Origin: Chitinophagaceae bacterium
GTDB taxonomy: Bacteria; Bacteroidota; Bacteroidia; Chitinophagales; Chitinophagaceae
Assembly (NCBI GenBank): GCA_020847395.1
Contig: JADLCD010000167.1
Location: forward strand, 1-64,000
Direction of reading: 5' to 3'
Length of the DNA stretch: 64,000 nt
Shown here: positions 19,355 through 56,064 of the stretch, in pieces
Numbering within the stretch: position 1 is the first letter of the stretch
Layout: the number at the start of each line of letters is the position of its first letter
Position numbers and translations under genes: made by a program
Notes under the pieces: model-generated
Seen by the model: only the letters and a program-made list of their open reading frames with translations
Databases searched by the model: none
What the model was told of the DNA's origin: nothing

Positions 19355-19444
19355 ACAATAGTACTAATGTACGGCGGGTTTCTCTCCTGAACTTCGGTTG
19401 GGATCGAAAGGACGGCACACTCACCCGTCATTTCGATACCACCC

Positions 19445-19545
19445 TCTGGTTGCAATGAATTAAATGCATCTTGTGCGGTGAGAAATCCGTTGGGCAGTAG
19501 TGCAAAAGATGAACATCAGTACCAATGCCCGGCAGATTTCTCTCT
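19445..19545. repeat. dispersed hairpin element, copy 1 (conserved 29-nt loop)
   Basis: Arms 19480-19496 and 19526-19542 pair about 14/17; matches the copy at 49238-49338. Confidence 0.75.
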
Positions 19546-19599
19546 CACAAAAGAGCGATTTAACTACGATGTTTGTGTTGAAGGACGGGGATAATAACA

Positions 19600-31416: not shown

Positions 31417-31423
31417 AGGGTTG

Positions 31424-31458
31424 CAGGGTTTCCAACCTTTCCAAGGTTCGAAACTCTG
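31424..31458. repeat. REP-like palindrome R1 (degenerate)
   Basis: AGGGTTTCCAACCTT-TCC-AAGGTTCGAAACTCT; arms mismatch at two positions. Confidence 0.65.
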
Positions 31459-31529
31459 AATAACCTAAAAAAAGGTTTAACTTCCTGCCAAATATTCCTT
31501 GCTATGCCTATCATGGTATTATCGTAAGA

Positions 31530-31745: not shown

Positions 31746-31778
31746 AGGGTTCCGAACCTTTCAAAGGTTCGGAACCCT
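31746..31778. repeat. REP-like palindrome R2
   Basis: AGGGTTCCGAACCTT-TCA-AAGGTTCGGAACCCT, 15-bp perfect arms. Confidence 0.85.
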
Positions 31779-31844
31779 GCGCTTGATTGTTCAATAAAAT
31801 ATATGGCTTATATTTAGCGTAGTTATGCACTTAATAACTACCAT

Positions 31845-33344
31845 ATGCAATTACTAAAATTTTTTGTTCTTCTCATTTTCTGCTCAACAGGTTTTATTTG
31901 TTACGGTCAGCAACACATCGGAATTTTTGAACAAAGTACTGATGTTGGAGAAGTCATAAAAAAGGGAAGCATTCAATACGATAGTATTAACCAATCCTAC
32001 AGTATCAGCGGCTCCGGCAGTAATATCTGGTTTAAAAAAGATGAATTTTATTACGTATGGAAAAAATTGAAAGGCGATTTTATTCTTCACGCACAAGCCC
32101 ACTTAAAGGGTAAAGGCGTTGAGCTTCACCGGAAATTGGGCTGGATGGTGAGGGCCAGTCTTGATACTAATTCAGCAATGATAACAGCCGCGGTACATGG
32201 TGATGGGTTGACTTCTCTTCAATACCGTAAAGAAAAAGATAGTACTGTTGAAGAAACAAAATCATCAGATATTTTGCCTGACATTATTCAATTAGAAAGA
32301 AAAGGTAACCGTTTTATTATGTCTACAGCTAAATGGGGCGAACCGTTTACTGAAGTCTTTGCAGAAGATATCAATCTTGGTGATGAAGTATATGCAGGAA
32401 TGTATGTTTGCTCGCACAATGCAAATGTTTTGGAATCTGCGGTGTTTGAAAACGTGCGCATTATTATTCCCGCAAAAGAAAATTTTGTTCCTTACCGGGA
32501 CTATCTCGGCAGTCACATAGAAACGATGGATATTTCTTCCGGCATACGACATATCGTGTATTCCGAGAATGCATCGCTTCAGGCACCGAACTGGATGCAC
32601 GATAATACACACCTTATTTACAACAAACGGGGATCAATATACCGGCTGAACATTAATAGTAAAACTGCAGAACAAATAAACACGGGTGAAATACTGCAAA
32701 ACAACAATGATCATGTGATTTCCTTTGACGGAAAAATGCTTGGACTTAGCAGTTCAAGCGGTGATAAGAAATATGGCTCACTGGTATATACCGTACCAAT
32801 TAATGGAGGCATACCCAAACAAATAACCGCAACAGGCCCTTCTTATCTGCATGGCTGGTCTCCCAACGGAAAGTTTTTGGTATATACCGGGCAGCGCGAT
32901 AATCAATTTGATATTTATAAAATACCAAGTACAGGCGGCAAAGAGATAAGGCTGACTACTGCTGAAGGCCTTGATGATGGCGCTGAATATAGTCCTGATG
33001 GGAAGTATATTTATTTTAATTCTGTACGTTCCGGTCTTATGCAGCTTTGGAGGATGAAGCCTGATGGTACTGAGCAAACACAGCTTACCTTCGACGAATA
33101 CAACAATTGGTTCCCGCATATTTCGCCCAACGGGAAATGGATAGCTTTTCTTTCCTTTTCAAAAGACGTACCTCCGCAGGATCATCCATTTTATAAAAGA
33201 GTTTACCTGCGTTTGATGCCGGTTGACGGTGGCAAACCTACAATAATTGCTTATGTATATGGAGGTCAGGCTACCATTAATACGCCGTCCTGGTCGCCGG
33301 ATAGTAAAAAAATTGCCTTTGTAAGTAATACCGCTATGGAATAA
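31845..33344 (+). CDS. TolB-like PD40 beta-propeller protein with N-terminal laminin-G-like domain
   Basis: Signal peptide; repeated SPDGKYIYFNS / SPNGKWIAFLS / SPDSKKIAFVS. Confidence 0.85.
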   Translation: MQLLKFFVLLIFCSTGFICYGQQHIGIFEQSTDVGEVIKKGSIQYDSINQSYSISGSGSNIWFKKDEFYYVWKKLKGDFILHAQAHLKGKGVELHRKLGWMVRASLDTNSAMITAAVHGDGLTSLQYRKEKDSTVEETKSSDILPDIIQLERKGNRFIMSTAKWGEPFTEVFAEDINLGDEVYAGMYVCSHNANVLESAVFENVRIIIPAKENFVPYRDYLGSHIETMDISSGIRHIVYSENASLQAPNWMHDNTHLIYNKRGSIYRLNINSKTAEQINTGEILQNNNDHVISFDGKMLGLSSSSGDKKYGSLVYTVPINGGIPKQITATGPSYLHGWSPNGKFLVYTGQRDNQFDIYKIPSTGGKEIRLTTAEGLDDGAEYSPDGKYIYFNSVRSGLMQLWRMKPDGTEQTQLTFDEYNNWFPHISPNGKWIAFLSFSKDVPPQDHPFYKRVYLRLMPVDGGKPTIIAYVYGGQATINTPSWSPDSKKIAFVSNTAME

Positions 33345-33347
33345 TTT

Positions 33348-33380
33348 AGGGTTCCGAACCTTTCAAAGGTTCGGAACCCT
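33348..33380. repeat. REP-like palindrome R3 (identical to R2)
   Basis: AGGGTTCCGAACCTT-TCA-AAGGTTCGGAACCCT. Confidence 0.85.
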
Positions 33381-33386
33381 GCGTTT

Positions 33387-33986
33387 TTAAACGCTACCCT
33401 CCAGCCTCACTCCTTCGTAAATATCTGTTATGGGAATGTTTTCATTAATGGTTTTTACGTAAAGTATTTCTTCTGCCGATTTATATTCTTCCAGTTCCCA
33501 ATGTCCGGCTTCATTAAGCCTGAATATTTCGATATGTATGCTTTCGGAATCTACCAATATATATTCTTTCAGCGTGGGTATATCGCGGTATAGCTTAAAC
33601 TTTTCGCCGCGGTCATAGTTTCTGGTAGAAGGAGAAAGTATTTCGATAATTACTGCCGGGTTTACAACATTCCAGTTATCATTATTAAGCGTTTCCGGTT
33701 CGCCGCAAACAATAGAAATATCCGGGTAAGTGAAAAGGGTATTGGCTTCAATATGTATGCGCATATCACTGCCGAATGGCTGGCATCGCTTACCATTTAA
33801 TTTATTCGTCAGCCCGACAAACAGGTTCCTGAAAATTATATTGCGAGGCATTTTAGTACCAGACATAGCGAATATCTCGCCTTTGTAATATTCATGCTTT
33901 TCTGTAGCAGCTTCTTCCATTGCAAGGTATTCTTGAACGGTAAATTTTTGTTTGCCGTAGGCAACGGCAGGCTCTCTGACTTCCAT
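33387..33986 (-). CDS. Uma2-family putative endonuclease
   Basis: [60 protein letters not shown]. Confidence 0.92.
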
Positions 33987-34010
33987 CTAATAAAAATACA
34001 GCTTTTATAT

Positions 34011-34043
34011 AGGGTTTCCAACCTTTCAAAGGTTGGAAACCCT
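34011..34043. repeat. REP-like palindrome R4 (variant arms)
   Basis: AGGGTTTCCAACCTT-TCA-AAGGTTGGAAACCCT, 15-bp perfect arms. Confidence 0.85.
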
Positions 34044-34091
34044 GGAAACCCTGCAACTGAAATTCCCGCATTTTATTACCTTCGCAGCCAA

Positions 34092-40549: not shown

Positions 40550-40645
40550 GAGAGATTGCTTCTTCCGCCGAATCTTCGTTTCAATTCAAATGCTGATGCG
40601 GGCGGGATCGCAATGCCGGGAGTATGTTGGTTTTAATATCAGCAC
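40550..40645. repeat. dispersed intergenic repeat, copy B
   Basis: GAGAGATTGCTTCTTCCGCC core shared with 49005-49080; tail TGTTGGTTTTAATATCAGCA shared with 49352-49373. Confidence 0.65.
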
Positions 40646-48768: not shown

Positions 48769-49004
48769 ACCATGCTTTTAATTCAGTGCAAATTAATATT
48801 TTGAGGTGCTGCCGATATAAAACAACTTACACAAAACTGGTTTTACTGTATAAAAGTGACTATATCAAACTACTTATTCATGAATAAGTTTTGGGAAACT
48901 CCGATCCACAGCCTGCTATATTTTGATACCAGTATCCACGTTAGGCGCCTGTTTTTACGCGGGATATGTACTATGGCTGATTAAAGGAAATATTTTGAAC
49001 CCGT

Positions 49005-49080
49005 GAGAGATTGCTTCTTCCGCCAAAATATTCACTCAATTCAAATGATTATGCTGGCGGGCTTGCAAAAACGGCGGGAG
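49005..49080. repeat. dispersed intergenic repeat, copy C
   Basis: GAGAGATTGCTTCTTCCGCC...CAATTCAAATG..ATGCTGGCGGG matches copy B at 40550. Confidence 0.65.
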
Positions 49081-49237
49081 GTTGAGTGAATGTATGCTTT
49101 GCCTTGGTGCTGGTTGTAAACTTAAAACTTTTACCGTCACTGCGAACCCGCCCTCAGGTTGTATGAAACCAAAAGCATGTTGCGGCGGATGAAGCAGTCT
49201 CGTTCATAATTCAAGGTTAAGATTGCTTCTCCCACCG

Positions 49238-49338
49238 GCAGGTTGTAATGAATTAAATGCATTTCGCGGCGGTGAAAAATCTGTTTGGCAGTAGTGCAAA
49301 AGATAAACATGAGTACCAATGCCCAACAGATTTCTCCC
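49238..49338. repeat. dispersed hairpin element, copy 2 (conserved 29-nt loop)
   Basis: Arms about 49272-49290 and 49320-49338 around loop 49291-49319; matches 19445-19545. Confidence 0.75.
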
Positions 49339-49478
49339 TCGCACGACGGAACTGTGTTGGTTTTAATGTCAGCAAAAATGAAATCCCTGAAGGAATATTC
49401 ACCCGGCACCTCAAAATATTAATTAATCTAATTCTACCATAACAGTAAACAAGCATATTAAATCAGTATTTTGCATGT

Positions 49479-55884: not shown

Positions 55885-55930
55885 CGGTGCTGTCAGCCGT
55901 CAGGTATTAGCGGTTATTGCGGATGTAAAC

Positions 55931-55975
55931 CTATAAGGTTTGCCGGGCGGCATTGCAGCGCCGCAAACCTTATAG
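55931..55975. repeat. hairpin CTATAAGGTTTGC...GCAAACCTTATAG
   Basis: 13-bp perfect arms between the ABC permease gene and glyS. Confidence 0.7.
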
Positions 55976-56064
55976 ATTTTTCCTTCCCCCTTCTGCCCTA
56001 CGCCTTAAACCCTATACCTTACACCGTATCAAATTTTCCCCATATCTCCTATCTTTGCGCCCTT

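Follow-up and report, generated by a model that had tools for sequence, protein, structure and literature searches.

Repeat units at the two loci

In the window, by which we mean the whole 64,000-nucleotide stretch that was analysed, the first locus lies between convergent genes and carries an element that starts with CGTCATTTCGA and occupies positions 19426–19587. The hairpin drawn here in the initial annotation reads as described: GAGAAATCCGTTGGGCA (19480–19496), a 29-nt loop (19497–19525) and TGCCCGGCAGATTTCTC (19526–19542). Its second copy is also present, starting with GAAAAATC at 49274 and ending with GATTTCTC at 49336; the two loops match at 27 of 29 positions, and the block common to both copies reaches upstream through GGTTGYAATGAATTAAATGCAT. 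Both copies fold better than their dinucleotide shuffles on both strands (copy 1, z = −4.3 and −3.4; copy 2, z about −2.8), and the pair is real and far from chance.

The unit is larger than the hairpin. Alignment of the copies in the genome of the Chitinophagaceae bacterium from which the window comes (the source genome), together with their flanks, gives a full unit of about 174 nt, from CGTCATTTCGA to TCGAAAGGACG, in place of the element of about 100 nt assumed at first. A short deletion inside copy 1 lies close to its right end; our model R1 matches this copy at 19426–19596 with 136 bits. Copy 2 (49232–49344), fused to a related REP pair, has lost the left end and most of the right end. 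The features of the two loci, and one solitary unit between them, are as follows.

19375–19414, minus strand: short relic of a CGTC-type REP, CGTCCTTTCGATCCCAACC...GAGAAACCCG, next to the main element (from the sequence and the REP scan)
19415–19425, no strand: 11-nt gap between the two REP units, equal in length to the 8–12 nt gaps of tandem dimers elsewhere
19426–19489, plus strand: left CGTC-tagged REP, with CGTC tag, stem ATTTC/GAAAT, tandem G-A mismatch, inner CCGCC-type stem, 31-nt loop and CCG tail
19488–19534, no strand: inter-REP spacer with complementary ends GTTGGGCA / TGCCCGGC, holding the 29-nt loop
19535–19587, minus strand: right CGTC-tagged REP in opposite orientation, about 10 nt shorter before the head (AAGGACG)
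40552–40618, minus strand: solitary G-flavour REP CGGCATTGCGATCCCGCC...GAAGCAATCTC
48791–49424, no strand: 634-nt composite whose ends are perfect 19-nt inverted repeats, AATTAATATTTTGAGGTGC / GCACCTCAAAATATTAATT (48791–48809, 49406–49424), in which copy 2 is nested; its length is about that of the extra stretch relative to Terrimonas sp. NS-102
49007–49074, minus strand: G-flavour REP with degenerate head and tail GAAGCAATCTC
49135–49200, plus strand: G-flavour CGTC REP with compensated stem ACTGC/GCAGT
49220–49236, no strand: start of an inverted G-flavour partner, AGATTGCTTCTCCCACC, fused at a shared CCCRCC motif to the next element
49232–49344, plus strand: copy 2, a T-flavour element with headless left REP, complete spacer and truncated right REP

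An inverted repeat (19396–19415 / 19425–19444) lies at the REP relic and the main element. The 'loop' of the original hairpin is thus the middle of a 47-nt spacer between two REPs that face each other with their tags outermost.

The tag is well kept: C1, G2, T3 and C4 each reach at least 90% in 52 copies, and GACG mirrors them at the opposite end. In the left stem the A-T pair is found in 49 and the T-A pair in 50 of the 52 copies; the right stem is weaker at its first pair (33/52 standard) and regular at its second (51/52). The left unit, about 64 nt in all, has stem parts of 5 and 7 bp on either side of a tandem G-A mismatch and a loop of about 31 nt, and the right unit 5 + 2 + 2 bp and a loop of more than 30 nt. 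The tandem G-A mismatches between the stem parts (CGAT / AGAG on the left) can be read directly from the alignment. The tail after GAAAT is CTG or CCG.

Covariation and conservation of the alternative stems

We compared alternative pairings of the same bases in an alignment of 52 full copies from 7 genomes (A1). The two flanking REP stems, in which the ATTTC beside the CGTC tag pairs with the GAAAT of GAGAAATC and the mirror image does so on the right, gave a covariation of 0.133 against 0.063 (sd 0.005) in shuffled data, a figure that is optimistic in its exact value, the stem pairs of columns 12–58 and the inner right stem having been added after the alignment was seen. None of 500 shuffles reached the observed value, and 41 compensated cells were counted where 13 were expected. 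Related copies inflate such shuffle tests, and a filtered set of 18 sequences with less than 82% identity agrees with the full one (again 0/500; 15 Watson-Crick compensated cells against 4.6). A first set of pairs, which mixed REP and spacer stems, gave a weaker signal in the same direction.

The same pairing is found in other letters in related REPs of the source genome (ATTGC/GCAAT and ACTGC/GCAGT) and as ATTCC/GGAAT in copies L017 and L019. A REP scan of a 0.72 Mb sample of the source genome returned 27 matches with a complementary tail against 16 in the reversed sequence; because of this high background, only recurrent flavours were used.

For the central stem, GAGAAATCYGTTGGGC with GCCCGGCAGATTTCTC, covariation in the 52 copies was below that of shuffled columns (498 of 500 shuffles equalled or exceeded the observed value), and the spacer hairpin behaved in the same way (499/500). 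The terminal inverted repeat, taken as a terminal stem, had no covariation signal. The central hairpin that was originally drawn is therefore not the one maintained in evolution; the compensatory changes follow the two REP stems on either side of it. This is a general trap in REP dimers, where the long central hairpin catches the eye while the pairing within the flanking units is what evolution conserves. A large cloverleaf of outer and central stem, favoured by RNAalifold with RIBOSUM scoring, was also considered and set aside, as it had no covariation.

The initial annotation had further held the loop to be at least as conserved as the arms. This is true of the two window copies alone: averaged over 56 copies, conservation is 1.37 bits per position in the loop, 1.64 and 1.58 in the arms and 1.37–1.38 elsewhere in the element, so that the loop is conserved like the remainder of the unit and not more than the arms. 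Nor does it fall to background as copies are added, loop identity within genomes being 60–82%.

Distribution, site occupation and gene context

The source genome (5.17 Mb in 190 contigs) contains the element at 26 places by DNA search at E < 1e-3, well beyond the two copies first seen, and the covariance model gives at least 45 matches there, some places being counted on both strands. In 101 relatives, the unit was found in 9 of the 13 genomes of the genus, with full-length copies in G002, G004, G005, G007, G008 and G009, and as one weak match in one other genus of the family. Covariance-model counts within the genus, which include opposite-strand matches at some places, were 27 to at least 45 in each of seven of the 13 genomes and one or two in three; in the remaining three the model had no match. 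Beyond the genus, its matches were few and weak and came from four other genera of the family.

A search with the loop pattern over 84,980 species genomes, from which records of the source genome may have been left out, returned only Terrimonas sp. NS-102 and three Chitinophagaceae MAGs, and viral contigs had no exact match. The plain tag CGTCATTTCGA occurs more often than its reversed control in various Chitinophagaceae genomes. On this basis, the REP type is family-wide and the spacer essentially confined to one genus. A literature search with the element sequence returned primer coincidences only.

Dimers also occur in tandem, with gaps of 8–12 nt, in G000, G002, G004, G005 and G009. The longest array comprises 11 head-to-tail dimers with a period of about 185 nt in Terrimonas sp. 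NS-102 (G005 C1:400703-402724; L153 2204-4224), and its units differ in mosaic fashion, which suggests exchange between units. Arrays elsewhere have three or four dimers, and those of the source genome, on contigs 125 and 52, have two. Two subfamilies have inserts at set positions: a hairpin-bearing one of about 100 nt in five source-genome copies, and a 19-nt one on either arm in relatives. The former implies either onward copying of an already altered unit or a highly specific insertion site. Flavours also form hybrids, copy 2 of the window among them, whose junctions lie at shared CCCRCC motifs. A further dispersed hairpin, AAACCTATAAGGTTTGC...GCAAACCTTATAGGTTT, lies at 55927–55979 of the window and inside L007, L012, L018, L020 and L025; five REP dimers of the source genome contain a copy of it, always at CAGATT^CAGCG.

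Site occupation was compared at both loci. At locus 1, the closest relative (neighbouring LysR protein 93% identical) has a decayed element of the other subfamily in the opposite orientation, and no element was found in the orthologous stretch of at least eight genus members with readable sequence, in some of which the neighbouring gene also differs; the stretch in L199 is partly masked. At locus 2, about 0.6 kb is missing in the closest relative, a length near the 634 nt bounded by the 19-nt inverted repeats. Occupation is thus lineage-specific. The flanks did not establish a target duplication, the junctions being too diverged for one to be read.

The composite at locus 2 is possibly a larger palindromic MITE-like shell built around REPs. 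Ends of this type are also seen in L007, L012, L026, L255 and L260, and the end sequence TTTGAGGTGCCGGGYGGATATCCCTTCAGGGATTTCCTTTTTGCTGACATTAAAACCAACACAC occurs at several source-genome loci, mostly leading into a CGTC element. One may then ask whether the element itself is a MITE, either derived by deletion from a DDE transposon whose terminal inverted repeats are CGTCATTTCGA / TCGAAATGACG or carried along with the composite. The 11-nt terminal repeats and the nesting of copy 2 in a composite whose length is missing from the closest relative would suit this explanation. Against it, the terminal repeats do not covary with each other, no target-site duplication was established, solitary REPs without a partner exist, and most copies, that of locus 1 included, lie outside the composite; among the loci examined, no parent transposon with the same ends was found. 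We regard a MITE origin as quite unlikely.

Of 71 site clusters, 60 could be classed by gene context, counted from plain ORFs and not from a gene caller, and nearly all are intergenic: 27 between tandem, 18 between convergent and 15 between divergent genes. Overlaps with ORFs are few and mostly concern short, doubtful ones. Relative to tandem genes, 20 copies have the same and 10 the opposite orientation, which is no significant strand preference, and no terminator-like site was found. This is the pattern expected of a DNA repeat tolerated between genes, and it lends no support to a terminator or a strand-specific RNA. A 3'-end element selected mainly by the host, as mRNA stabiliser or bidirectional terminator with spreading as a side issue, would agree with the convergent genes at locus 1 and with such roles of REPs in other bacteria (PMC3733652). 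Convergent and divergent sites are, however, about equally frequent, and occupation is not conserved between species; together with the missing terminator-like site, this makes a host-selected role of this kind rather improbable.

The counts bear equally on the suggestion of a structured noncoding RNA. The predicted fold is strong, and the loop is recognisable in all genomes with the element, as would be expected of a noncoding or cis-regulatory RNA copied to many loci with the loop as its functional site. Nevertheless, the central hairpin does not covary, the loop ranks below the arms, there is no significant strand preference, a quarter of the classed sites lie between divergent genes, and Rfam gave no family at gathering score (at a permissive threshold chance families only, far below their gathering scores). 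Such an RNA is very improbable; intergenic, lineage-specific insertions without clear strand preference fit a DNA repeat better. The other suggestion of the initial annotation, that of a dispersed, small non-autonomous mobile element and not a simple terminator, agrees with the dozens of intergenic copies and their lineage-specific sites.

It should be noted that the window contains four palindromic copies of AGGGTTCCGAACCTTTCAAAGGTTCGGAACCCT (31420–31473, 31746–31784, 33348–33386 and 34004–34057), around ORFs 31845–33344 and 33387–33986.

Candidate mobilisers and comparison with known repeats

GTAG REPs and REPINs are linked to RAYT (TnpA-REP), an HUH/Y1 transposase, and are thought to be mobilised in trans. 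The same could be supposed here, as the REP dimer resembles a REPIN and RAYT-type genes occur throughout the genus, with two over the NCBIfam cut-off in the source genome. Yet of the RAYTs whose flanks were examined in the genus, L136 alone stands next to the element, an incidental neighbour, the others being bordered by ordinary genes; an IS200-like gene (L149) lies about 0.5 kb from a copy. RAYT and tag counts were not significantly correlated in 150 Chitinophagaceae genomes (rho = 0.14, p = 0.09). One genome of the family (G104, 2.7 Mb) has 27 CGTCATTTCGA tags and no RAYT match, and it would be a good place to seek another mobiliser.

The RAYT on contig 168 of the source genome, which carries the NHVH and YIHQNP motifs of subclass 2.6, has identical palindromes CAGCGTAGCTTATAGCTACGCTG on both sides (L143 1234-1256 and 1906-1928), different from the CGTC REPs and probably its cognate REP. 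This agrees with Quentin et al. 2018, who described atypical structures around Bacteroidetes RAYTs of that subclass (PMC6006769), and our negative results agree with the finding of Di Nocera et al. 2013 that CGTC repeats have no associated transposase (PMC3733652). Mobilisation by a RAYT is therefore unlikely in our view.

Overall, we read the element as a head-to-head heterodimer of two CGTC-tagged REPs of about 174 nt, tags outermost, with a conserved 47-nt spacer whose ends are complementary; runs of the dimer in tandem form a BIME-2-like mosaic. We put the probability of this reading at roughly 0.8. Most likely the element is a selfish or passive repeat that the host tolerates, its effects on neighbouring transcripts being secondary at most, and not a dedicated RNA.

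For the mechanism of spread, we offer a tentative scheme, which we consider possible but somewhat doubtful. The constrained form would be single-stranded DNA, as exposed in replication, in which each REP could fold into the CGTC tag and a hairpin of 5 bp, a tandem G-A mismatch and then 7 bp (left) or 2 + 2 bp (right). An enzyme, probably acting in trans, would copy or insert the paired unit between genes, and recombination or replication slippage between units may give rise to the tandem arrays with their short gaps and to the mosaic hybrids. The analysis turned up no enzyme and established no target duplication, nor was any movement seen, so the word 'mobile' rests here on distribution. A bolder version, in which the CGTC REP dimers of this clade are actively spread by an undescribed non-RAYT enzyme that recognises single-stranded hairpins marked by the tandem G-A mismatches, the conserved spacer being part of the recognised or inserted unit, seems to us a long shot, slightly less probable even than mobilisation by a RAYT; if true, that enzyme would be the missing mobiliser of the CGTC class.

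Since 2013 the spread of CGTC REPs has lacked an explanation, as they have no associated transposase. The clade can be used in a search for the enzyme: some of its closely related genomes have dozens of copies while in others none was detected, the occupied sites vary, and genomes with and without the element can be compared. It also offers a full-length unit whose subfamilies are clear, and an array of 11 units.

REPINs, reportedly described by Bertels and Rainey in 2011, are inverted REP pairs of the GTAG type that spread as one unit with a RAYT. The inverted pair is common to both systems, whereas the tag here is CGTC and RAYT loci, L136 excepted, are without the element. The E. coli BIME-1 and BIME-2 (PMC2817692) are similar in their two REP types of alternating orientation, constant inter-REP spacers of two lengths and tandem reiteration, and the alternating REPs reiterated in tandem with constant linkers that mark BIME-2 are seen here; the GTAG tag and RAYT association of the BIMEs are not. 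Like the structures around subclass 2.6 RAYTs (PMC6006769), our element belongs to the same phylum and forms hairpins with copies elsewhere in the genome. The contig 168 RAYT, by contrast, is flanked by CAGCGTAGC...GCTACGCTG, unlike CGTC REPs.

The closest counterpart is a class that Di Nocera et al. 2013 described, CGTC-tagged REPs with their head-to-head dimers, which includes dRS3 of Neisseria and RPE-4 and RPE-6 of Rickettsia (PMC3733652). As in that class, where TGTC or CCTC may replace it, CGTC stands unpaired at one end of each unit, the stem starts with complementary A and T and a short unpaired tail follows; head-to-head dimers are the main form, heterodimers occur, the spacers are conserved with complementary ends, the sites are intergenic, and no transposase is associated, which we judge from the RAYT tests. 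Since conserved inter-REP spacers are thus already published, the conserved loop is not unusual for a REP, as had been thought. In the published families, the stem has 8–9 bp, the loop 4–5 nt and the tail reads CCA, and tandem clusters are rare (PMC3733652); here the left unit has 5 + 7 bp interrupted by a tandem G-A mismatch, with a loop of 31 nt, the tail, C(C/T)G, may depart from CCA, and clusters recur. Given these stem and loop sizes, the element is a variant and not a plain CGTC REP. The class and the dimer form are already known (PMC3733652), and we found no description, in the papers we consulted, of the variant, with its long-looped REP units, tandem G-A mismatches and essentially genus-restricted spacer. 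The element is ordinary in kind and moderately interesting in detail.
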